Source: a virus. Taken from it: a stretch of 35,693 nt of DNA. The stretch spans positions 1 through 35,693 of the IMG/VR virus record IMGVR_UViG_3300025276_000084, one strand, 5' to 3'. The notes beneath the pieces were generated by a model, which searched no databases, was not told the DNA's origin, and saw nothing but the letters and a program-made list of their open reading frames with translations. A program made the translations under genes and the position numbers. This document shows, one piece after another, positions 1,662 to 11,296 of this stretch (its first letter is position 1; each line of letters begins with the position of its first letter).

Positions 1662-3929
1662 TCATTTCGACGTCCGGCCCTCCTTCGCCGCGATCCAGCA
1701 CATGCCCTCGTTCTGCACGACGTATCCCATCGACAGCAATCCACTGACGGCGCTGCTGTATGCGCTGCGCGGGTTGACCGACGACATCTTGCCAGTGGCA
1801 AAGTCGCGCAGCCTGTCCTCTGGCACGCACCAATATTCGCCAATCTCCGGCCAGCCTGGCCCGCCGGGGTTTGATCTGCCGACGCCGTCAGCGCGTAGCT
1901 GCTTGAACGCCTTGACGATGACCTTCTGATTTGCGCCAGCGGGCCGCTTTTGATCCTTGTCGGCAATGTCTTCGTCGCTTGCCGCCGTGATCGTGCAGGT
2001 CGTCACGTCGTCGCCGTCCTCATCGCAGCCCAGCGTGTGGATTTTTAGCTGAAAGTTAAACGGCGGCTGCGGCTCAAGATCGCGTTGCTTGGTGGCTGTT
2101 GCCGTCCGTATGTTGCCGCTGACCGTCAGCTCTATCTCCGTGTCAGTGGCGGCGCGCAACGAACTATGCCCACGCGCGCCTTTCGCGCTGTCCTTGCCAC
2201 TGTGGTGGACGACCATGATGTGCGCGCCCGACGCATTGCGCAGCACGTCGCAGTTGGAGATGAACGACGTCATGTCAACGCTGCCATTCTCGTCGCCACC
2301 GGCCAGCGCCCTAGACAGCGTGTCCACGACGATCATGCACGGTGGCGCGCCGCATGTCTGCTCAATCTCGGCGCACAGCTCCAACAAGCCAGCGAGGTCG
2401 GCGGCAGGGTCCAGCAGGTTGACCGGCGACGGCCTGACTGCCAATTGCACGTCATCCAGGCTGTACTGCTTGCGCAGCGCCATCACGCGGTTGTTGAATG
2501 CAATCCCGCCTTCGGTCGCCAGATATAGCACCGGCCCGCCGCGCGTCTTGCAATCCTGCCATTCGATCTTTGCTGCGACTGTAAACGCCATGTCGAGCGC
2601 GAAAAACGATTTGCCGACGTTGCTTGGCCCGTAGACGACTGACATCTGCCCAGCGCCCAGCCAATTTTTGACCAGATACGCCGACTTCAACATTGGCCGG
2701 GCGTCCCTTGCCCAGAATATTTCGTTGCGTTTGGCGCGCTCAGTCGCCTCGCCGATCTGAAATTCCACTGGCGCTTGCATTTCTGCGGGCGCAGACGTCG
2801 GGATAATGTCAAAGTCATCGACGTCATCCGGCTGCATGTGATCGTGCTGGCTCGCGCTTTGCATGATGCTGTCGCGGATGTCGTTGCCGCTCGGCTTAAT
2901 CTCCGCCCCATAAGCCCGCACTGCGTCCGTAAAGTTGCCGCCGTGGCTGTAGAACACGTATAAGTCGAAGGCGTCGCCCCAGCAGAAGTCTGCCGACGAC
3001 GTGCCGACGCCAGCAGCCAAGTCGCTGCCCGACATGCTGACCCAGTGCGTGCCGAAGTCTTTGACGGGGAAACTGCCGGTCGTCGATTGCGGCGACTTGT
3101 AGCTGTCTGATTGGCCCTGCCGCTCGTATCCGTATTCGACGAACAGGTCGCCGATTGTGTGCGCGTCGTTGAATACGTCAATCGGGTCCACATTGTCTGG
3201 ATACTGTGCGCGCTTTTCCGCTCTGGCCGCTATCCGCTTCGCGCGGTCAAATGCCGCCTTCGCCTCGGCAATGGCTGCATTCTTTCGGCGAAATTCAACC
3301 TCGGCCCAGATCGCGCTGTCCTTTGCGACCATGTAGCCGCCGCCGCGATGCTTTTCCGACTCATAGAACAGCGGCTCGCCACTGTCGTCGCGTTTCGCTG
3401 GCGGAACATTCGGCAGGAATATCGGCTGGCCGGTGCGTGCCAATGTACTGTCGGGCGTAATATTGTAATCCCGGCGCAGCATGTCAAACAGCGCCAACTG
3501 CGCGTCGGCATATTCTTCGCCGGTCAGCGGCTCGGACAGCGGGATTAGCACCCGCCATTTTTTGTTTTCTTGCGTGGCGCTGGACGACGTATATGTCAAC
3601 GTCATCGCGCCGCCAGTCACGCCGTCGATTGCGTACCGGATCGCGTCGATGTCTGGGTTGCCTTCGTCGATGTCGATGGCCAGCATCCAGTATTCGCCAC
3701 GCTCGCGCTGTGCTGCGTGGTTCCGGCCATCGTGGCCCTTGTAGGTGGACGGAATGATGAACGCGGCGTCAGTCTTTTCCGTAGCTTGCGGCGCGTCAAC
3801 CATCGCGGCTATCTCGCGCAGCGTAATGCCACCGTATTCTGTGGCTGCGTTATTGATGCGGGTGTCTCCCGATCCGTGCGCAATCAGCAGCGTTTGCTTG
3901 CCCATGTCACTGTTTTTTGTTAACGTCAT
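1662..3929 (-). CDS. Bifunctional primase-helicase (AEP-like N-terminus plus RepA/AAA_25 ATPase)
   Basis: A 755-residue replication protein. The N-terminal third resembles the archaeo-eukaryotic primase-like domains of phage and plasmid initiators: AIDIDEG with D86 and D88 as likely metal ligands, followed by an S-rich stretch and KWRVLIPLS (124-132). The C-terminal third is a RecA-fold helicase: Walker A GPSNVGKS (434-441), Walker B CMIVVDT (531-537) and a VVHHSGKD motif (573-580), as in the RepA/AAA_25 family. A Lys/Arg/Ala-rich helical linker lies near 215-242. The ATG has AAGGAAG eight bases upstream. No DNA polymerase gene was found, so this enzyme probably unwinds and primes DNA for host polymerase. 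It sits between the SSB gene and the iteron-like cluster. The ATPase part is firm; the primase assignment is likely. Confidence 0.85.
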   Translation of the reverse strand: MTLTKNSDMGKQTLLIAHGSGDTRINNAATEYGGITLREIAAMVDAPQATEKTDAAFIIPSTYKGHDGRNHAAQRERGEYWMLAIDIDEGNPDIDAIRYAIDGVTGGAMTLTYTSSSATQENKKWRVLIPLSEPLTGEEYADAQLALFDMLRRDYNITPDSTLARTGQPIFLPNVPPAKRDDSGEPLFYESEKHRGGGYMVAKDSAIWAEVEFRRKNAAIAEAKAAFDRAKRIAARAEKRAQYPDNVDPIDVFNDAHTIGDLFVEYGYERQGQSDSYKSPQSTTGSFPVKDFGTHWVSMSGSDLAAGVGTSSADFCWGDAFDLYVFYSHGGNFTDAVRAYGAEIKPSGNDIRDSIMQSASQHDHMQPDDVDDFDIIPTSAPAEMQAPVEFQIGEATERAKRNEIFWARDARPMLKSAYLVKNWLGAGQMSVVYGPSNVGKSFFALDMAFTVAAKIEWQDCKTRGGPVLYLATEGGIAFNNRVMALRKQYSLDDVQLAVRPSPVNLLDPAADLAGLLELCAEIEQTCGAPPCMIVVDTLSRALAGGDENGSVDMTSFISNCDVLRNASGAHIMVVHHSGKDSAKGARGHSSLRAATDTEIELTVSGNIRTATATKQRDLEPQPPFNFQLKIHTLGCDEDGDDVTTCTITAASDEDIADKDQKRPAGANQKVIVKAFKQLRADGVGRSNPGGPGWPEIGEYWCVPEDRLRDFATGKMSSVNPRSAYSSAVSGLLSMGYVVQNEGMCWIAAKEGRTSK

Positions 3930-3974
3930 CTTGCGGACTTCCTTTTCGCCAAGTTTTGTTCGTTTCTCCCAACT

Positions 3975-4010
3975 CCCCCGCAGCTTTAAAAGGCTGCGGG
4001 GGTTTTCTTT
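3975..4010 (+). terminator. Strong hairpin with a T-tract on the plus strand
   Basis: CCCCCGCAGC (3975-3984) and GCTGCGGGGG (3993-4002) form a perfect 10-bp stem with an 8-base loop, followed on the plus strand by TTTTCTTT. This is a textbook intrinsic terminator, but it faces against the flanking minus-strand genes. In the minus-strand mRNA it lies between the SSB stop and the primase-helicase start with the A-tract upstream. It may block antisense transcription or act as an intercistronic stabilising hairpin. Confidence 0.6.
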
Positions 4011-4012
4011 GC

Positions 4013-4663
4013 TTAGAACGGGATGTCGTCCATTGCCAGATCATTGGCTGCAGACTTCGGAATGTCAGCGAACGGATCACCCGCAGCCGCCACGCCAAAA
4101 TCATTCAAATCTGGGTCTTGGATTTTGCCGACTGGCGCAATGGTGTCGAAATCATCCAGCCCGCTGGACCCGCCGTAAACCGCATTTACCACTTGGACCA
4201 CATCAATCAACAGCGAGATACCGCCTTCCCCGGAAGGGCTCGTCACAGGATACGCTGTCACTTTAATATTGCCCGTTGATCCGCCCCAGATGTGTACGTC
4301 TTCAAGCGGCTCTTTCAATCCGTTGATAACTTTTGGCTTCGGGTTTTCTTCGCCCTGACCGTTGACGCCATTGCGCTTCGCCGAAAAGCTAAACGATCCG
4401 TCGTCTAGTTTCTTCATGCCGAATATTTTTGCAAACGGGGCTTTCGTGGTGCAACTCTCGTAATGCTGCTTTAACTCAGTCTGCAGCTTTCTTGCTGCGT
4501 CCGCATTCATAGTCCAGCCAACGCTGTACGCTGCGCCCTGTGCGCGGGGGTTGCACTCCTCTGAGCGGTTTTCCGCCGTGTTAAATTTATACGTCGCCCC
4601 TAGCTTGGGAAACTTAAACTCAACATCTCGGATCATAATGCCCTTGAAATCAGTATTTGCCAT
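4013..4663 (-). CDS. Single-stranded DNA-binding protein (DUF2815 / gp2.5-like)
   Basis: A 216-residue protein with the features of phage SSBs of the DUF2815 or T7 gp2.5 type. It has a beta-rich body with conserved aromatic and basic positions (for example KFPKLGATYKF near 17-27 and SVGWTM near 47-52). The C-terminal region is acidic and disordered and ends exactly in DDIPF (212-216), the tip that bacterial SSBs use to recruit partner proteins. It would coat single-stranded DNA during replication and recombination and could dock the host machinery that binds the SSB tip. It lies between the exonuclease and primase-helicase genes, a usual pairing. A strong hairpin follows its stop codon. Confidence 0.8.
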   Translation of the reverse strand: MANTDFKGIMIRDVEFKFPKLGATYKFNTAENRSEECNPRAQGAAYSVGWTMNADAARKLQTELKQHYESCTTKAPFAKIFGMKKLDDGSFSFSAKRNGVNGQGEENPKPKVINGLKEPLEDVHIWGGSTGNIKVTAYPVTSPSGEGGISLLIDVVQVVNAVYGGSSGLDDFDTIAPVGKIQDPDLNDFGVAAAGDPFADIPKSAANDLAMDDIPF

Positions 4664-4675
4664 TGTTGTCTCTCC

Positions 4676-5479
4676 TTAAAAGTCGTCTGTTGAGGCTGCA
4701 TCTTGTGCCAGCCAAGGTGGGATATCAACCGCGTTGATACCAATCGAATAGCCAGTCTCCCAGACTTGGGTGTCATTGGCCGTCTTAATATCGCGCAGGG
4801 CTTTGTGCATTTGCACGTCGGCCCACTCGATATATTCCTTTGTCAGCTCGCAGACGTTTACTGCGAACGGCGCTGTCTTTTCTACAAACACGAATACAAA
4901 CCTGTCCGCCTTGTGGCCCGCATTCTGCATCACGTACATGTACCACGATGCCTGCAGCGCATAATTATATTTGCGAATATCTGCTTCGACGTCTTTCGGT
5001 GCGCTGGACTGGCACGTTTTAATGTCAAATATCACGCCAGATTTTTCGTCGTAGCTGTCTGGTCGGCACTTGATGTCCAAGCCAGTCATCGGACACTTGG
5101 CGAAGAAGCTGGCCTCGTTGACGGTGTCAGGCCCAGCCATCTTAGCGCCGACCGGGTGAAACATGACGCTGTCTGCCACGTTGCGGGCGAGGTCATAGTC
5201 GCCAGCGGTTAGCAGTAGGTGGCCGTGCGCCTCGGCCTCCGCAAATGCGTCAGACCATTGCTTACCGCGACGATCTGCGCCGCCCCTGACAGTATTCTCG
5301 CCATCTTCAAGGCACATGTCGTGGACTGCCGTGCCAATTGCCATCGCAATAGTCGGCTTGAACGCGGCGCGGTGCTTCCAGTGCGCCAGCGACTTGCCGT
5401 GAACGGCCTTCACGTCCGACGACGAGATCGCCTCGGTCGCGTGATATTGCGCGTTCGACATTTTGTCTGCGGTTATCAT
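4676..5479 (-). CDS. PD-(D/E)XK exonuclease (RecE / PDDEXK_12-like)
   Basis: 267 residues with the motif order of phage recombination exonucleases. The GTAVHDMCLE helix has H53, then come E122 (NEASFF), D141 in CRPDSY, the FDIKT core with D152 and K154, and YALQASWY with Q176. These match the catalytic layout of RecE/DUF3799 nucleases. The likely role is 5'-3' resection of double-stranded DNA for annealing, with the adjacent SSB covering the product. No separate annealing protein was recognised. The start overlaps the end of the RuvC-like gene by four bases, which suggests translational coupling. Confidence 0.8.
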   Translation of the reverse strand: MITADKMSNAQYHATEAISSSDVKAVHGKSLAHWKHRAAFKPTIAMAIGTAVHDMCLEDGENTVRGGADRRGKQWSDAFAEAEAHGHLLLTAGDYDLARNVADSVMFHPVGAKMAGPDTVNEASFFAKCPMTGLDIKCRPDSYDEKSGVIFDIKTCQSSAPKDVEADIRKYNYALQASWYMYVMQNAGHKADRFVFVFVEKTAPFAVNVCELTKEYIEWADVQMHKALRDIKTANDTQVWETGYSIGINAVDIPPWLAQDAASTDDF

Positions 5480-5946
5480 ATCAGTTTTTCCTTTCCATAT
5501 AATGCGATCAGGCAGGCTTCCGCTCTGCCATCATCTTTGACCCGCGCAAACTGCGGCGCGATCTGCGGGAACCGTTGCGATGCAACAGACCGTGATACAC
5601 CCTTGTCGCGGGATAGAGTAAAGTGGCCCTTCCAGCGCCGTGGCGTGACAAAGTGAACCGGCAAGCCCTGCGCCGCAATGGCCATTGTCAGTTGCCCAAA
5701 ACCCTCGCCGAACCGGAAAGTTGAGCTAACGCCCTGGCCCGGCATTGCGCCCACTTGCTCAATAACAGCCATGTGAGGCGTGTCGTCTTCGCGCCCCAGT
5801 AAATCGAGGACGCCGTGCAGGTTCAAGATTGTTTTGCCTTTAGCCGACTTCATCACTGGCATGTCGTGAACCTCAATCAAATTGAGGCTTGGCCTGTAGA
5901 TCGAAATCGCGCCGGTAAAGCCTGGGTCAATTCCAAAAATAACCAT
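5476..5946 (-). CDS. RuvC-like Holliday junction resolvase
   Basis: A 156-residue RNase H-fold nuclease of the RuvC type. It opens with FGIDPGFTGA, where D7 is the first catalytic acid. E63 lies in AVIEQVGAMPGQG, and D138, D139 and E143 lie in the KDDGRAEACLIALYG helix, giving the usual D-E-D/E set. Size and motif order fit phage RuvC-like resolvases, which cut four-way junctions and branched DNA before packaging. The ATG overlaps the stop of the RHH gene as ATGA, so the two are translationally coupled. It is the second gene of the minus-strand replication operon. Confidence 0.85.
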   Translation of the reverse strand: MVIFGIDPGFTGAISIYRPSLNLIEVHDMPVMKSAKGKTILNLHGVLDLLGREDDTPHMAVIEQVGAMPGQGVSSTFRFGEGFGQLTMAIAAQGLPVHFVTPRRWKGHFTLSRDKGVSRSVASQRFPQIAPQFARVKDDGRAEACLIALYGKEKLI

Positions 5947-6074
5947 CAGGACTGCTCCGCCTCTTTGATTGCAGCCATGCGGACAAACGCGGTAAACGTC
6001 ATCCCCAGACTATTCGCTGCGGCCTTGATGACCGCCGCATGTTCCTCGGAAAAATGGATCAACTTGGGTTTCAT
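5946..6074 (-). CDS. Mini ribbon-helix-helix (CopG/Arc-type) regulator (42 aa)
   Basis: The open frame is longer, but the ATG at 6074 has AAAGGAGA six bases upstream, a near-ideal ribosome site, and gives a 42-residue protein. It has the RHH plan: a short basic beta strand (MKPKLIHFS, residues 1-9), helix 1 (about 10-22), a turn with G24, and helix 2 (about 27-40). RHH dimers insert the paired strands into the DNA major groove at inverted or tandem sites. It is the first gene of the minus-strand replication operon, and a 13-bp inverted repeat lies 45 bases upstream, between this operon and the divergent plus-strand operon. Autoregulation, with control of the divergent genes, is the likely role. 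Confidence 0.7.
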   Translation of the reverse strand: MKPKLIHFSEEHAAVIKAAANSLGMTFTAFVRMAAIKEAEQS

Positions 6075-6118
6075 GGTCGTTCTCCTTTTGTGTACGGCAT
6101 CAATAGCGTATAAAAATA

Positions 6119-6153
6119 ATATAGTAAAGATGCGAAGTATATCTTTACTATAT
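6119..6153. promoter_or_regulatory. 13-bp inverted-repeat operator in the divergent control region
   Basis: ATATAGTAAAGAT (6119-6131) and ATCTTTACTATAT (6141-6153) are perfect reverse complements around nine bases. The site lies in the AT-rich gap between the start of the minus-strand operon (6074) and the plus-strand operon (6213). Each arm contains TTTACT, one on each strand, resembling -35 elements. The best candidate ligand is the RHH protein encoded next door. Confidence 0.65.
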
Positions 6154-6172
6154 CGCAGACTGACGTTAGAAA
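6144..6172 (+). promoter_or_regulatory. Candidate promoter for the plus-strand small-gene island
   Basis: TTTACT (6144-6149) and TAGAAA (6167-6172) each match the sigma-70 consensus at four of six positions with a 17-base spacer. The -35 lies inside the right operator arm, so bound regulator would block it. The first gene begins 41 bases downstream. It is weak on sequence alone. Confidence 0.35.
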
Positions 6173-6212
6173 GGACATACGAACAATTTAACAAGCAAAT
6201 AGGAAATACAAA

Positions 6213-6488
6213 ATGACAACCATCACCCTCAAAACTGAATCAACCCTAGACTGCCTACGCGTAAACGGTCGCTTGGTTAATTGCCGCCCGCGCATTGATT
6301 GGATCAAGAAATCATACGCTGGCGAGTGGGTCGGTGAAGCTGGTGGTGAGCCATTCGTTATCATTGGCGGCAAAGCAAGTGGAGGTGCTGCAAACGAGTG
6401 GTTAACCCAGTGGGGTCCAGCAGCGGGTGACACCTACATGCGAGCTAATTCAGCAATGGCAGCGGTCAAGCTAATCGAAAACGCCTAA
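6213..6488 (+). CDS. Unknown small protein, first of the island (91 aa)
   Basis: Function not recognised. It is the first gene of the plus-strand operon, with AGGAAA six bases before the ATG. The leader AGCAAATAGGAAATACAAA directly before its ATG recurs exactly before the gene at 6808. The protein is a compact, probably alpha/beta domain. It has a beta-rich N-terminus (MTTITLKTESTLDCLRVNG), a Trp-containing middle (DWIKKSYAGEW), a Gly-rich turn (IIGGKASGGAANEW) and a C-terminal helix (AMAAVKLIENA). There is no signal peptide or membrane segment. Being first behind the divergent operator, it is probably made early. Host takeover or anti-defence roles are possible but unsupported. Confidence 0.65.
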   Translation: MTTITLKTESTLDCLRVNGRLVNCRPRIDWIKKSYAGEWVGEAGGEPFVIIGGKASGGAANEWLTQWGPAAGDTYMRANSAMAAVKLIENA

Positions 6489-6544
6489 CCCAAACGGGGG
6501 CCACAGCGCCCCCCCCCACCCAACCTAACCAAAGGAAATACAAA
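6486..6544 (+). repeat. Intercistronic linker copy 1: stem-loop plus ribosome site
   Basis: Stop codon TAA, then GGGGGC (6496-6501) and GCCCCC (6508-6513) as hairpin arms, then ACCCAACCTAACC and AAAGGAAATACAAA up to the next ATG. The same arrangement recurs at 6752-6807 and 7081-7136. This copy has a nine-C run and a slightly longer loop. No U-tract follows the stem. Confidence 0.8.
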
Positions 6545-6754
6545 ATGACACGTTACACAGAAATCCAAACCAAAGCGCGCCAATCTGGTATCGACACCGT
6601 TCGGGACAACCACGGCACGCCGCGTGGGTATTGGATCACACAGGCTGATGGCAACCCGCTGTGGCCAGACGATAGCTTCACGACATCCCTTGATGAATTG
6701 GCATCTATGGTCAGCGAACACATTCGCACGCTGCAAATGTCCCGCCAAGCATAA
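6545..6754 (+). CDS. Unknown small protein (69 aa)
   Basis: Function not recognised. It lies between two copies of the stem-loop linker, with AGGAAA before the ATG. The 69 residues start with a probable helix (TRYTEIQTKARQSG), then a short beta-like region with aromatic and Pro residues (GYWITQADGNPLWPDD), and end in an amphipathic helix (LDELASMVSEHIRTLQM). It is soluble, without cysteines. Size and context match early phage proteins that bind and modulate a host factor, but this one cannot be assigned. Confidence 0.65.
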   Translation: MTRYTEIQTKARQSGIDTVRDNHGTPRGYWITQADGNPLWPDDSFTTSLDELASMVSEHIRTLQMSRQA

Positions 6755-6807
6755 CTCAACGGGGGCCACGCGCCCCCACCCACCACTTAGCAAATAGGAA
6801 ATACAAA
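6752..6807 (+). repeat. Intercistronic linker copy 2: stem-loop plus ribosome site
   Basis: After the TAA, GGGGGC (6761-6766) and GCCCCC (6772-6777) form a hairpin with a five-base loop. The leader AGCAAATAGGAAATACAAA, identical to the one before 6213, leads to the ATG at 6808. The hairpin is nearly identical to copies 1 and 3. Confidence 0.8.
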
Positions 6808-7083
6808 ATGACCAACGCAAACCTCACAACAAACCAAACCTCCGCAATGCACTGGCTCATCAAATCTTGCTGCGGCAACATGGGCGGCAAAAACCTTGCT
6901 GATCTGCAATGCGATCCGTTTACTTGGGTTGAGGCTTCAGACCTAGAAAATGCTGGTTGGGGTCGGAAAAACGCTGAAGGCACATTCGGATCGCTCGTTG
7001 CTGCTGGTCTGGTTTGCGATGCAGACGACGGCTTGTTTACCCTCACCGACGATTGGGACTTGCTGGCCACCTTTCACGAATAA
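6808..7083 (+). CDS. Unknown small protein, possible winged-helix fold (91 aa)
   Basis: Function not recognised. The 91 residues read as a likely small helical domain with a beta wing near the end. Helix 1 is near SAMHWLIKSCCGN, a second helical stretch is around VEASDLENAGWGRKNAEGTFGSLVAAG, and a short hairpin (LVCDADDGLFTLTDDW) follows. That order resembles a winged-helix DNA-binding domain, but no family can be named by eye. It contains a CC pair and a third Cys. AGGAAA lies six bases before the ATG in a leader identical to that of the first island gene. A stem-loop linker lies on each side. Confidence 0.6.
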   Translation: MTNANLTTNQTSAMHWLIKSCCGNMGGKNLADLQCDPFTWVEASDLENAGWGRKNAEGTFGSLVAAGLVCDADDGLFTLTDDWDLLATFHE

Positions 7084-7136
7084 CTCAAACGGGGGCCACG
7101 CGCCCCCACCCAACCTAATCAAAAGGAAATATTATC
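7081..7136 (+). repeat. Intercistronic linker copy 3: stem-loop plus ribosome site
   Basis: TAA, then GGGGGC (7091-7096) and GCCCCC (7102-7107), then ACCCAACCTAATC and AAAAGGAAAT before the ATG at 7137. The hairpin and spacing are as in copy 2, while the last bases before the ATG differ (ATTATC in place of ACAAA). Confidence 0.8.
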
Positions 7137-7337
7137 ATGGCCGACATTGAAATTGAAACATCCGAGCAGGCGCTGACGTTGGCGCTGAAGCTGGCGATCC
7201 AAGCGCCGACCGACGAACAGCACAAGCTGGCGACCGACATGGCAATCAGCATCGCGCACGGCATGTCCCCAGACACTGTACGAATTTGCAAGCTGGCCGC
7301 GATGGCCGCCGTTGAATATGAGGACACATTCAAATGA
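7137..7337 (+). CDS. Unknown small helical protein (66 aa)
   Basis: Function not recognised. The sequence is almost entirely predicted helix and acidic at the N-terminus (MADIEIETSEQALTLALKL), with an HKLATDMAISIAHGMSPDTVRICKLAAMAAVEYED segment forming one or two more helices. It is probably a small soluble helical bundle. The ribosome site AAAAGGAAAT lies before the ATG in the third linker copy. From here on the genes switch from linker-separated to overlapping: its stop shares ATGA with the next start at 7334. Confidence 0.65.
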   Translation: MADIEIETSEQALTLALKLAIQAPTDEQHKLATDMAISIAHGMSPDTVRICKLAAMAAVEYEDTFK

Positions 7338-7423
7338 AAAACCTGATTGGCGACATCATCGGCGGCATCAGCCTATTTGTTATGCTGGCCGTCTTACTGG
7401 CTCTTGCGGGGGCATCGTTATGA
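7334..7423 (+). CDS. 29-residue single-pass membrane protein
   Basis: A very short gene supported by four-base ATGA overlaps at both ends (7334-7337 with the gene before and 7420-7423 with the gene after), which fixes the frame. The product begins MKNLIGDIIGGISLFVMLAV and is hydrophobic from about residue 4 to the end, long enough for one membrane span with a short N-terminal polar part carrying one Lys and one Asp. Tiny membrane proteins in early phage operons can act in superinfection exclusion or lysis control; nothing in this sequence decides between them. Confidence 0.6.
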   Translation: MKNLIGDIIGGISLFVMLAVLLALAGASL

Positions 7424-7737
7424 AATCTAATTTCAACGCCCCGCAGCCCGCAACGCTGAAGCGGTTCCACTGCCGCGCCGTGCAGGCAGGCACCGGCAGC
7501 GATCTTTACTACGAGGCCGACACAATGGAAGAACTGCAGGTCATGCTTTACGGCTCCGCATACCCAGCAGAACGCGCCAGCGTGCAGACATACGACAACA
7601 GCGAAAGGCTCAGAACGAATGAGATTATTCAAGATATTGCCCGATATGGGGCGGTTCTTTGCGGGGCCGTCCACGACATCCCGCTCGACGAAATCTACGC
7701 AATCAAATCCAAATCAGAAAGTGACCAAAATGTTTGA
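7420..7737 (+). CDS. Unknown small protein (105 aa)
   Basis: Function not recognised. The frame extends upstream, but the ATG at 7420 overlaps the preceding stop as ATGA and is the natural start. The 105-residue product has a beta-rich first half (KRFHCRAVQAGTGSDLYYEADTMEELQVMLYG), an acidic helix with aromatic residues, and a C-terminal helical part (EIIQDIARYGAVLCGAVHDIPLDEIYAIK). It looks like a small alpha/beta fold, with two Cys and no membrane segment. Its last eight bases overlap the next gene. Confidence 0.65.
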   Translation: MKSNFNAPQPATLKRFHCRAVQAGTGSDLYYEADTMEELQVMLYGSAYPAERASVQTYDNSERLRTNEIIQDIARYGAVLCGAVHDIPLDEIYAIKSKSESDQNV

Positions 7738-8326
7738 CAACAACCAAGAGACCACAACGACAACTTTGACAGTTACAAATCGGACGATCAATGAAAGCTG
7801 TTTCGGCATTGAAATCGGCTCAGGATTTACCGTATACATCCCCGCATCAATATCAATTCGCGCCAATCTTTCTGCGGGCGACCTGCTGACTGCCGACGTA
7901 ATCCCAAATCCCGTAGAAGGTAGCCGCGAGCGCACGCCGTATATGGCCGTCAACGTCGCGCCGTGGGTTGCTACATCCGCTACATCCGCTACACCTGCTA
8001 CACAGGAGCCGGAAGCCTCGGAGCAATTTGACGGCATCTCCGCCGAAGAAGCCCGTGAGTTTACGCAGAAACTGATACTTGATGGCGACTGCTGGAACAA
8101 CCGAGACGTGTTTTGCGAGTTGATGGATAACCCCGAAGCCGTTAGGGATGACAACACTATAGCATATAACGCAATTGGTCACGAAATGCGGCGCATTTTT
8201 AATGCGGGAAAATGCTCAAAATTTGTTTTATTTCGGAAGTCATCGCAAACCAAGGCGTCGGCGGAGTGGTTCACGTGCCGCCCAGACAAATGCGAGCCAA
8301 TGTCATGGAGCGAAAATGATGCTTGA
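7730..8326 (+). CDS. Unknown two-domain protein with a slippage-prone linker (198 aa)
   Basis: The ATG at 7730 overlaps the previous gene by eight bases and follows a weak AG-rich stretch. The N-terminal part (about 1-80) is beta-rich (FGIEIGSGFTVYIPASISIRANLSAGDLLTADVI) and reads like a small barrel, possibly OB-type. A linker of four nine-base units encodes ATS-ATS-ATP-ATQ near residue 82. The C-terminal half has a helix-rich domain with DNRDVFCELMD-like character and three Cys (CSKFV, WFTCRPDKC). A nucleic-acid-binding role is plausible for a barrel plus helical domain, but no family is recognised. Confidence 0.65.
   Translation: MFDNNQETTTTTLTVTNRTINESCFGIEIGSGFTVYIPASISIRANLSAGDLLTADVIPNPVEGSRERTPYMAVNVAPWVATSATSATPATQEPEASEQFDGISAEEAREFTQKLILDGDCWNNRDVFCELMDNPEAVRDDNTIAYNAIGHEMRRIFNAGKCSKFVLFRKSSQTKASAEWFTCRPDKCEPMSWSENDA
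7970..8005 (+). repeat. Four tandem nine-base units inside the 198-aa gene
   Basis: GCTACATCC at 7970-7978 and 7979-7987, then GCTACACCT and GCTACACAG to 8005. The units are in frame and encode Ala-Thr-Ser/Pro/Gln steps. Copy number can change by slippage without breaking the frame. Confidence 0.85.
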
Positions 8327-8612
8327 TAATCACAAAACAAAAGGCCCAGCGCCAGCGGCGCGGCCACACACGACACTGCGCAAATTGCAGCAACAGAACC
8401 GCCAGTTTCTGACAATCGGTTCGCTCGGCACGGACGTGGCTTGCAAGTTGCCCGACGCGGTGTCGGAATGGCTAATCAGTGAAACACTAAAGCTGCCAGC
8501 TTTGGGCGGTGCAAAACTGCCTGCAGTAGCCTCGCTGATCGCCCTTTTGTGCATTGATGCCTACCACGACGACCTTGATGACCGCATGGCATCGAAAGGA
8601 AAGCGCAGATGA
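8316..8612 (+). CDS. Unknown small protein (98 aa)
   Basis: Function not recognised. Two ATGs in a row (8316 and 8319) follow GGAG by five and eight bases; the second has the better spacing, and the difference is one residue. The start overlaps the previous gene. The N-terminal third is basic and Pro/Ala-rich. The middle has a helical region (LPDAVSEWLISETLKLPALGGAKLPAVASLIALLCIDAYHDDLDDR) whose hydrophobic part is too interrupted to be a clear membrane span, and the end is basic (KGKRR). Its stop overlaps the next start as ATGA. Confidence 0.65.
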   Translation: MMLDNHKTKGPAPAARPHTTLRKLQQQNRQFLTIGSLGTDVACKLPDAVSEWLISETLKLPALGGAKLPAVASLIALLCIDAYHDDLDDRMASKGKRR

Positions 8613-9004
8613 CAACTCGGCTACAAACAATCACCGCCAACGCATTCAGGCTGACGTCGATGGCCACGGCAAACGAGGCCCACATCGGGCGCGCAATCCG
8701 CCGCCATGAGCTGGCAGACGACCACCGCCCGCGCATGCCAAAGACGCCAGACAGGACGGAGGTTGAGCGCGAGGGGCTGCAGCGCGTCTCAGATGCCGCC
8801 GTGCTGGAATTTCTGCGGACATGCCCCGACGGCGTGTCAACAATGCGCGCAATCCAAGACGGGCTGACCGGGGTCGTGCGCCCGGCGTCGGTTCAGAACG
8901 CCCTGCGAAACATGAACGGCGCGGCTGGCTTTATCCGCAAACACGTTTCCAGCACTGGCAATCGCAACTGGTACGAACTGACGGACAAGGGCCGCAGATC
9001 GTGA
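8609..9004 (+). CDS. Winged-helix-like DNA-binding protein (131 aa)
   Basis: The N-terminal half is basic and helical. The C-terminal half (about 60-131) has the pattern of a winged helix: VSDAAVLEFLRTCPDG as helix 1, VSTMRAIQDGLTG as helix 2, VRPASVQNALRNMNGA as the recognition helix, and a two-strand wing (FIRKHVSSTGNRNWYELTDKGR) ending in the TDKGR seen in many PadR/MarR-like wings. It may regulate phage or host transcription. It overlaps the previous gene as ATGA, and the next GTG start overlaps its stop. The fold call is by eye and no family name is claimed. Confidence 0.65.
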   Translation: MTTRLQTITANAFRLTSMATANEAHIGRAIRRHELADDHRPRMPKTPDRTEVEREGLQRVSDAAVLEFLRTCPDGVSTMRAIQDGLTGVVRPASVQNALRNMNGAAGFIRKHVSSTGNRNWYELTDKGRRS

Positions 9005-9177
9005 GTAAAAAACAAAACTTCCGTTGCCCTGATTGCTGGCGCGTTTATCCAAACGCCGAAGCAGTAGAACGGCACCGAGTAAAAATGAGGGGCCGCTGCA
9101 TCGACAGCGCGCCCGCCTACGTTGCAAACAGAATTAAACACGAACGGGCAAAGTATGCCGCAGGGGATGACCAATGA
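9001..9177 (+). CDS. Small C2HC zinc-finger protein (58 aa)
   Basis: It begins at a GTG (9001) that overlaps the preceding stop; an AAGGG lies nine bases upstream. The 58-residue product carries a zinc-finger layout: C9-x2-C12, twelve residues, H25, seven residues, C33, with aromatic W13 and Y16 and a basic helix (AVERHRVKMRGR) holding the His. That resembles a C2H2/C2HC finger with Cys replacing the last His. The tail is basic. It likely binds nucleic acid or a protein partner. Its stop overlaps the next ATG as ATGA. Confidence 0.65.
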   Translation: MSKKQNFRCPDCWRVYPNAEAVERHRVKMRGRCIDSAPAYVANRIKHERAKYAAGDDQ

Positions 9178-9538: not shown

Positions 9539-9680
9539 CATTTGAAATCGTGTGGGGCGGGCGGGCTTAGAAATCGGACTGTAGCGCAGTAACCAGCAAG
9601 CGCACCAACATCAACCAAGGTTGAGATATTCGCCCCACGTCAACCCAATACCAACAACGCAAAATGAGGAACAGCACAAA
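9539..9680. other. Structured intergenic gap inside the island
   Basis: No gene or tRNA is seen. GTGGGGCG (9552-9559) pairs with CGCCCCAC (9631-9638), and CAACC-AA-GGTTG (9612-9623) is a small palindrome. It is the longest gap in the plus-strand operon and could hold an internal promoter or an RNA structure for the last gene. Confidence 0.4.
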
Positions 9681-9956
9681 ATGGACAGATCAACAGTTTT
9701 AAAGCAAGCCGAGCAATGCGTCACCCATGATCGCGCCGCGACACATGGCGACGCAGAAGACAGCTTCGCTAGCATCGCGGCGCTGTGGGAATGGTGGATG
9801 ATCCACCGCGACGACGGCCCGCTGGACGCATACGATGTGGCAATGATGATGTCGTTGTTCAAGCACGCCCGCGCAGCGTCAAACAAAGAACACAGCGACA
9901 ACTTTGTGGATGCGTGTGGATATCTGGCATTGGCATCAGAAATGACCTACAGCTAA
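9681..9956 (+). CDS. DUF6378-type phage protein (91 aa)
   Basis: The frame opens earlier, but the ATG at 9681 follows GAGGAA by nine bases and starts the conserved part. The pattern THGDAEDSFASIAALWEWW, DAYDVAMMMSLFKHAR and HSDNFVDACGYLAL matches the phage DUF6378 family as I know it: an H/Y-GD turn followed by three helices with invariant DV, K-AR and DN..D..GY. The biochemical role of the family is unknown. It is the last gene of the island, and its 3' end overlaps the convergent nuclease gene by 21 bases. Confidence 0.7.
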   Translation: MDRSTVLKQAEQCVTHDRAATHGDAEDSFASIAALWEWWMIHRDDGPLDAYDVAMMMSLFKHARAASNKEHSDNFVDACGYLALASEMTYS

Positions 9957-10310
9957 CTCTCGCAACGACGCAGATTGGGCGGCGGGCGTAAAGTCTGCCG
10001 TCCGGAGCGTCATGTGCTTGCAGTTTAGTCTGGCATCGTCGCCGCGCATAAATAAAACCAGACCGAGCGGCAGCGCGTAAAGGCCCCACCAGTCGGCTTT
10101 TGACGCGCCGACATTAAACCGCACGCGGCCCGTGTGCGAAATTGTGGCGCATGTTTTAACCTCGACCGACGCCAGCGTGCCGTCAGGCCGCAGCGCAATC
10201 ACGTCAAACCGTCCGTCCGATCTAGTGGCCTCGCAGTTCGCACGCTCTAACAAGTGGCAGACGAAAAACTCGCCCGCGCGCCCGATGTTGGTAGCGCGGC
10301 GGGCAATCAT
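9936..10310 (-). CDS. PD-(D/E)XK endonuclease-like protein (124 aa)
   Basis: A small nuclease-fold protein. N8 and GRAGEFF give E14, RFDVIAL gives D36 and ASVEVKT gives E50 and K52, the E-D-ExK layout of Hjc-type and related PD-(D/E)XK nucleases. It is shorter than most archaeal Hjc resolvases only by its tail. It may debranch DNA before packaging or degrade host DNA; a RuvC-like resolvase is also encoded, so the roles may be split. It is the last gene of the leftward late operon. Its start overlaps the Rz1 stop as ATGA, and its 3' end overlaps the convergent island gene. Confidence 0.7.
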   Translation of the reverse strand: MIARRATNIGRAGEFFVCHLLERANCEATRSDGRFDVIALRPDGTLASVEVKTCATISHTGRVRFNVGASKADWWGLYALPLGLVLFMRGDDARLNCKHMTLRTADFTPAAQSASLRELAVGHF

Positions 10311-10516
10311 TTACAGAATTGATCCCAGGTTTCGTTGTTGACCACAATGCCAACTAGCAGCCCGCGATCCTGGGCCATCAGCGTGTCGATGGTTTGCTGG
10401 CTTTCAAACTGCAATGGCCGAGCCAGATCGCAATAGTTACCGTTTGTCGGCGTCTGGGCGCAGCCACTTAGCAGCACGCTCCCCAAGGCCAACGTCGCCC
10501 AATGTCTCGATTTCAT
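10307..10516 (-). CDS. Rz1-like outer-membrane spanin lipoprotein (69 aa)
   Basis: It has a short basic N-terminus, a hydrophobic stretch and a lipobox (LLSGC, C19 lipidated), so it is an exported lipoprotein with a mature part of 51 residues. The mature part has two further Cys and the NYCDLARPLQFESQ and NNETWDQFC character seen in small phage lipoproteins beside lysis genes. Its first 80 bases lie inside the Rz-like gene in another frame, the classic overlapped spanin arrangement. With Rz it would fuse the inner and outer membranes in the last lysis step, which implies a Gram-negative host. Confidence 0.75.
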   Translation of the reverse strand: MKSRHWATLALGSVLLSGCAQTPTNGNYCDLARPLQFESQQTIDTLMAQDRGLLVGIVVNNETWDQFCK

Positions 10517-10676
10517 GGTCGATCTCCATTTTGCGCAGTGCTGCGTCCAATCTATCAGACGCGATCCGCTTGTCTAGCTCTGCTAATTTTGCGTCAGCGT
10601 ATACCGACCGCCAGCGCAACAGGCCAGCGACGAAGGCCAGCCCGACAAATATGTATAATTGCAGGCGCATGGTCAT
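10437..10676 (-). CDS. Rz-like inner-membrane spanin (79 aa)
   Basis: The ATG at 10676 overlaps the endolysin stop as ATGA; an in-frame GTG upstream is less likely. Residues about 4-22 (RLQLYIFVGLAFVAGLLRW) form one membrane span. The rest is a charged helical region (DAKLAELDKRIASDRLDAALRKMEIDHEIETL) with coiled-coil character reaching into the periplasm. This is the plan of an i-spanin, although it is shorter than lambda Rz. The Rz1 gene starts inside it, and the endolysin lies directly upstream in the same operon. Confidence 0.7.
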   Translation of the reverse strand: MTMRLQLYIFVGLAFVAGLLRWRSVYADAKLAELDKRIASDRLDAALRKMEIDHEIETLGDVGLGERAAKWLRPDADKR

Positions 10677-11296
10677 CGGTCGCCACCTGCCCACTTTCGC
10701 AGCCGCTCGCGCATAATCCAGATGCCAGCCAGCACGGCCACGCCAGCAAAGGCCAGCACAATGTACTGCGCCACGCTGTCGAGCGCTGACAGGGCCGCCA
10801 CGGCGCTACCTGCGCCAGAAGCCACTGTGACCGCCGACGCGCGCACCGTGCCGCTCTGTGTTACGCTGGAGCGTCCCTGTGCGGGCAGCTCTGACGTAGA
10901 CCACTTGCTGTTGTCGTAAACGCGGCGATCCAATTCAAAATGCGGGCCGTCCTTGAATGAAGTCCAGTCGCCGCCCCACACAATCGGGACGCCCTCTTTC
11001 TTCGCTGCCGTCTTAACCGCTGGCCCAAGCTGGTCATACAGCGGCCAAGCAAACTCGCCCCTGCCCGTGGTCGGGTCAATCGGCAGCAGGTCCACTGCGT
11101 GTCCAGTCAGGTGGCGGCTGTTCATTGTCTGAGATGCGCCGGACGCGACCAGTTGCTCTTGCCGTTTCCTAGTGCGCAAGCCCTCAATCACAGCAAAATC
11201 CAGCGGGCCGTCTTGCAGTGCGCGGTCAATGACGCGGCGCAGGTCGGGGTGAACGCCGTTCAAGCTAGTCAGGCTTCTTTGCGAATATGATCTCAT
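10673..11296 (-). CDS. Endolysin: M15-family peptidase with a C-terminal membrane segment (207 aa)
   Basis: Residues about 10-130 are a VanY/M15-type zinc peptidase that cuts peptidoglycan cross-bridges. It shows SRHLTGHAVDL with H62 and D69 as zinc ligands, VWGGDWTSF (106-114) and GPHFEL with H119 as the third ligand. A Ser/Thr/Gly/Ala linker (about 138-165) leads to a hydrophobic helix (YIVLAFAGVAVLAGIWIM, about 177-194) and a basic tail (RERLRKWAGGDR). The C-terminal anchor is unusual for a soluble endolysin and may tether it in the membrane or give holin-like activity. AAGGTAT precedes the ATG. Spanin genes follow at once. Confidence 0.85.
   Translation of the reverse strand: MRSYSQRSLTSLNGVHPDLRRVIDRALQDGPLDFAVIEGLRTRKRQEQLVASGASQTMNSRHLTGHAVDLLPIDPTTGRGEFAWPLYDQLGPAVKTAAKKEGVPIVWGGDWTSFKDGPHFELDRRVYDNSKWSTSELPAQGRSSVTQSGTVRASAVTVASGAGSAVAALSALDSVAQYIVLAFAGVAVLAGIWIMRERLRKWAGGDR

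Follow-up and report, generated by a model that had tools for sequence, protein, structure and literature searches.

In T4-type phages, promoter-early stem-loops (PeSLs), in work attributed to Arbiol et al. 2010 and Comeau et al. 2014, are repeated elements located between small early genes and are said to mediate modular shuffling. A second system comes from cluster K mycobacteriophages, where the SAS (GGGATAGGAGCCC) is a repeated ribosome-site sequence beside start codons. According to the part of the description drawn on here (PMC3203893), about half of the copies are immediately preceded by an inverted repeat, with 17-bp ESAS arms that match imperfectly, and the elements accompany genes of different families in non-structural regions. 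The same part of that account calls the association between ESAS and gene stable and does not describe shuffling at the sites.

Here we describe an array of small genes joined by repeated linkers in a 35,693-base virus record from IMG/VR, the whole of which we call the window. The source is a marine-type bacterial virus. Its terminase and portal are similar to the corresponding proteins of alphaproteobacterial phages (54 and 38 per cent, respectively, to Sinorhizobium phage phiM5), and the portal also has 47 per cent identity to that of an Octadecabacter virus; judged by their sequences, these nearest matches point to alphaproteobacterial phages. A genome search found no relative of the exonuclease, so this protein does not fix the host. 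We found no linker match among 50,697 records of named phages, and no match there to the wider region around the linkers either.

Linkers and genes of the array

A leftward block of the window codes for a resolvase like RuvC, a protein like exonuclease VIII, and an ssDNA-annealing protein. Between this block and the rightward row of small genes stand a ribbon-helix-helix-like gene and a perfect dyad that is a probable operator (Table 1). The nearest relative, L245 (IMGVR_UViG_3300037344_000003), has the same junction motif and encodes a protein identical to the ribbon-helix-helix-like one. The corresponding L245 sites are 4300-4330 and 4925-4960, and the right half of the dyad is duplicated together with the leader inside the L245 array.

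Table 1. Features of the small-gene array and its left flank, in window positions.
Feature	Position	Strand	Remarks
Recombination genes: ssDNA-annealing protein, exonuclease VIII-like protein	4013-4663, 4676-5479	-	phrog_112, E 2.9e-9; phrog_412, E 1.1e-64
Ribbon-helix-helix-like protein, 42 aa, divergent, left border	5946-6074	-	weak TacA1/NikA-like match, E 0.0008, below curated cut-off
Perfect 13-bp dyad ATATAGTAAAGAT-9-ATCTTTACTATAT, probable operator, divergent promoter region	6119-6153	.	adjoins ribbon-helix-helix gene
First-gene leader AGCAAATAGGAAATACAAAATG	6194-6215	+	same sequence as second half of J2
Cassette gene A, 91 aa	6213-6488	+	relative in Dinoroseobacter phage R5C, 46 per cent, without hairpin
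Linker J1: stop, hairpin 6496-6513 (GGGGGC-CACAGC-GCCCCC), C/A spacer, ribosome site	6486-6544	+	
Cassette gene B, 69 aa	6545-6754	+	no database relative found
Linker J2: hairpin linker (hairpin 6761-6777) plus first-gene leader (6789-6810)	6752-6807	+	chimaera
Cassette gene C, 91 aa	6808-7083	+	relatives in L266-L270, hairpin after all
Linker J3: stop, hairpin 7091-7107, spacer, GGAAATATTATC ribosome site	7081-7136	+	
Cassette gene D, 66 aa	7137-7337	+	missing from L245; D-like domain in L249
Tiny conserved hydrophobic ORF, 29 aa, right array border	7334-7423	+	

The three junctions J1, J2, and J3 each run from a stop codon through a GGGGGC hairpin and a C/A-rich spacer to a GGAAATA ribosome site, and all are covered by one 48-nt direct repeat family. 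The hairpins of J2 and J3 are both GGGGGC-CACGC-GCCCCC; that of J1 has the loop CACAGC. The window contains three matches to the hairpin pattern where 0.5 are expected, a number reached in none of 100 shuffles; the common build described in the first-pass annotation is borne out. The leader AAAGGAAATACAAAATG likewise has three matches (0.06 expected). Folding of each linker into the hairpin yields roughly -14 to -15 kcal/mol, with z values of -2.1 to -2.7. The same annotation had called the ribosome sites near-identical, and this stood only in part: GGAAATA is present at all three, but J3 diverges from the others beyond it, and the second half of J2 is not generic linker but repeats 22 nt of first-gene leader without a mismatch.

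No sigma-70-like promoter was found at the junctions with a consensus scan, which is weak for this host, and no Rfam covariance model matched the linker at gathering score. On the - strand (7085-7113 and 6496-6513), flanks that consist nearly entirely of C and A allow G-U pairs to lengthen the hairpin stem, probably an effect of composition.

The proteins between the linkers had been described as unrelated, and we agree: there is no significant similarity among them, the sole match being A against B (E 0.03-0.04 over 24 aa). None of the genes at 6213, 6545, 6808, and 7137 has a Pfam or PHROG match. An AlphaFold model of gene C had a pLDDT of 46 and was set aside.

Gene exchange at the linkers

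L245 is collinear with the window at 1844-6217 (78 per cent DNA identity by blastn) and again at 7321-9008 (74 per cent). Between these flanks, it carries three ORFs (163, 58, and 81 aa) that are unrelated to the four of the window. All three L245 junctions nevertheless have the hairpin linker, with a TTCG loop in two cases and CACGC in one, and their linker DNA is 81-95 per cent identical to that of the window. The promoter-side leader occurs twice in L245, one copy being directly joined to a hairpin linker. The last hairpin linker of L245 abuts the tiny border ORF, in the place that gene D occupies in the window. ORFs similar to this border ORF lie 3' of the hairpin in two other contigs (L048 and L267) and downstream in a third (L272). 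A relative of gene D (45 per cent) is located inside a longer ORF of L249 (5296-5463, minus strand), a syntenic contig without hairpin linkers.

Junction J2 preserves one such joint. Its second half and the first 14 nt of gene C are identical over 33 nt to the first-gene leader plus the start of an unrelated gene in L245. By this match, J2 together with the opening 14 nt of gene C is chimaeric, and its source can be traced to a first-gene leader. The identity reaches 14 nt into gene C, and its N-terminus therefore has three residues more than in its relatives.

A further case came from searching for relatives of the L245 gene rC. The whole of L272, a 12.3-kb contig with a different backbone, was compared with 20 kb of the L245 record, and the two share a 339-bp linker-gene-linker block with 95.6 per cent identity. 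The block extends from one hairpin to the ribosome site that comes next; beyond it and the other linkers, there is no DNA match between the two. The J3 leader of the window is also present in L272, where it precedes a different gene.

Gene gain or loss is clean in a third, independent phage group (L009, L013, L021, L064, and L086). L009 has one gene between two hairpin linkers. The gene is missing from L064, with the joint at the hairpin and 24 bp common to both flanks, and from L021, with the joint at the ribosome site and ATG. Across 55 distinct junctions, one upstream family precedes several downstream families, and vice versa. Many of the contigs were collected by the hairpin search itself, and several are short metagenomic fragments. 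Metagenomic chimaeras are possible, but they do not easily explain a block that is 95.6 per cent identical rather than fully so, or joints repeated in separate samples.

The hairpin also accompanied genes in loci that were found by protein search and not by hairpin search. In each of the five relatives of gene C (L266-L270, 63-70 per cent identity), the stop codon is directly followed by the hairpin, in different neighbourhoods, and it takes a CACGC, TACG, or G-U wobble form, the wobble preserving the stem in L266. L267 has a leader of its own, AAACAAAGGAATAACACAATG, repeated before two genes (2980-3000 and after 3264). To judge from these sequences, it looks as though leaders become adapted to the phage in which they reside and hairpins move with the genes. 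Some of the rC relatives in L273-L279 lack the hairpin, as does the relative of gene A in phage R5C, so hairpins are not obligatory.

The proposal that small genes are exchanged as cassettes, with the linkers as recombination joints, had come with a test, namely whether the pattern flanks different genes in relatives. It does, and on these alignments exchanges took place at the linkers; the cassette reading is strongly supported. The window also shares positions 9547-10713 with L288 (14028-15194) at 94 per cent identity in surroundings of 74-81 per cent, which on this pattern is a further recent exchange.

The hairpin across viral contigs

The 17-nt hairpin is found in many unrelated viral contigs, with one to three copies per record. 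On the CACGC strand, exact GGGGGCCACGCGCCCCC sites follow a stop codon at a distance of 4-12 nt in forty-one of forty-nine distinct cases, compared with 3/49 on the other strand and 6 per cent of random positions. CACGC outnumbers the other CACNC loops by forty-eight to seven. With any loop allowed, TTCG is the commonest and CACGC is absent from the sample, so we rejected CACGC as a universal loop. In a set of 1096 ORF ends, from loci mostly obtained by protein search and not by hairpin search, twenty-three have a strong stop-proximal hairpin, fourteen of them with the GGGGGC stem. No GGGGGCCACGCGCCCCCACCC was found in 84,980 bacterial genomes; since only about 0.1 would be expected by chance, this absence shows only a lack of spread.

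The first-pass annotation had held that its cassette and RNA ideas would weaken if relatives always kept the same genes between the linkers and the hairpin arms showed no compensatory changes. The genes do differ, but no compensatory changes were seen, the stem being nearly constant and most of the variation falling in the loop.

Two other elements were seen. In viral contigs L123-L241, GGGGGC-TTCG-GCCCCC is common a few bases past stops, often with a T-rich tail, and these hairpins look like ordinary terminators. A second palindrome of the AACGCTAACGGCGTTAGCGTT type occurs in L008, L059, L089, and L277-L284, either after the hairpin or without it, and sometimes precedes a TTCG terminator.

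Explanations and relation to known systems

We consider it probable that the array of small early genes is variable and that the linkers are its recombination joints, with short-homology recombination, possibly by a RecE-like exonuclease and annealing protein, and with a possible role for the hairpin in mRNA. A cassette would be an ORF with its own stop-proximal hairpin, and the remaining half of the joint would come from the ribosome-site leader. Since all junctions end alike in this hairpin and ribosome site, homologous recombination between two linkers, whether they lie within a genome or in different genomes, would add, remove, or replace a complete translatable gene. The longest exact stretch shared between linkers is 42 nt, which exceeds the 23-27 bp required by Red-beta (PMC3945230), and an exonuclease/annealing pair is adjacent; from this we infer short-homology annealing by the pair encoded 0.7-2.2 kb to the left, a candidate catalyst by proximity only. 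In the mRNA, the hairpin could protect the upstream gene at its 3' end, or could stop ribosome run-on so that the cassettes would be independent of one another. Such 3' protection or translational insulation, inferred from the position and strand of the hairpin, is plausible, and in these sequences the stop-proximal placement and strand specificity are consistent with an RNA insulator or a protector of the 3' end. Against the joints as such, phages generally have mosaic joints between genes, and breakpoints could come to lie there through selection for intact genes, without special linkers.

The linker may instead be kept mainly as an mRNA element (a 3' stabilizer, processing block, or translation insulator), with its use as a joint a by-product of repetition. 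We give this a real chance, though a minority one. The constant distance of 4-12 nt from the stop and the strand-specific loop speak for it, as do a stem that is kept while the loop changes among TTCG, CACGC, CACAGC, and TACG in otherwise similar linkers, the G-U wobble in L266, and the separate terminators that come after the hairpin at operon ends. However, the sequence as well as the structure is nearly invariant, and there is no Rfam family. The missing stem covariation lends no support to a purely structural role.

It is unlikely that the hairpins are weak or attenuating intrinsic terminators, with the gene differences due to ordinary mosaicism and the linkers to duplication of one spacer. 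Stop-proximal TTCG-loop GGGGGC hairpins, often with T-rich tails, are indeed common in viral contigs, and T-rich sequence lies 3' of the CACGC hairpin in one group. The window copies, however, have no U-tract, and no terminator-like site was called on the + strand at the three junctions; we therefore rejected a normal intrinsic terminator there, as the annotation had done. In L059 and L086, the CACGC hairpin is followed by a separate TTCG-loop, T-tailed hairpin, and this arrangement at operon ends of the L009/L059 group means that the terminator at those ends is not the CACGC hairpin. The hairpin is also used internally, before genes, and a linker-bounded cassette block occurs between otherwise unmatched genomes.

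That the hairpin is a DNA binding site for a regulator or for a packaging or replication protein is very improbable: a palindrome repeated in a phage genome would suit such a site, but the copies are mostly at gene junctions, in a single strand orientation directly after stops, and only one to three per record. Integron-like cassettes, mobilized at their hairpins by a site-specific recombinase, are scarcely credible, since the array of gene plus hairpin resembles a row of attC cassettes but the perfect GC stem has no visible attC layout, the joints are at the ribosome site as well as at the hairpin, and no PF00589 recombinase is present in the window record, which may be incomplete.

A wider reading can be put forward tentatively: GGGGGCCACGCGCCCCC may be an adapter common to unrelated, mostly uncultured phages, a stop-proximal RNA insulator so nearly identical among them that small genes can pass between lineages that share no other DNA, and the hairpins may mark a common pool of small accessory (possibly anti-host) genes. 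A hairpin scan would then list candidate small accessory genes of uncultured phages. How phages exchange such genes precisely is a standing question, and the joints here are visible, repeated, and testable.

Among known systems, intrinsic terminators need a U-tract after the GC hairpin, which the window linkers lack, and integrons a tyrosine recombinase of the integron kind, for which no PF00589 match was found in this possibly incomplete record. Phage Rad52-like recombination also exchanges genes at short stretches of identity (PMC3945230), but that work concerns lambdoid phages and longer homologies, whereas here repeated intergenic linkers would provide the homology. As in the part of the cluster K description drawn on here, an inverted repeat lies upstream of a repeated ribosome-site sequence; unlike there, the leader is AGGAAATACAAAATG and not GGGATAGGAGCCC, and in place of the ESAS arms there is a perfect G/C hairpin of 6 bp that is anchored to the preceding stop codon. 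Like T4 PeSLs, the linkers are repeated stem-loops between small genes that are shuffled between copies. PeSLs carry an early promoter, while these linkers carry a ribosome site and no promoter that our weak consensus scan could detect, although one L245 copy of the leader and promoter does come after a hairpin. They also belong to other phages, have another sequence, and are tied by their hairpin to the upstream stop codon. The linkers thus act like T4 PeSLs and cluster K ESAS, yet are neither.
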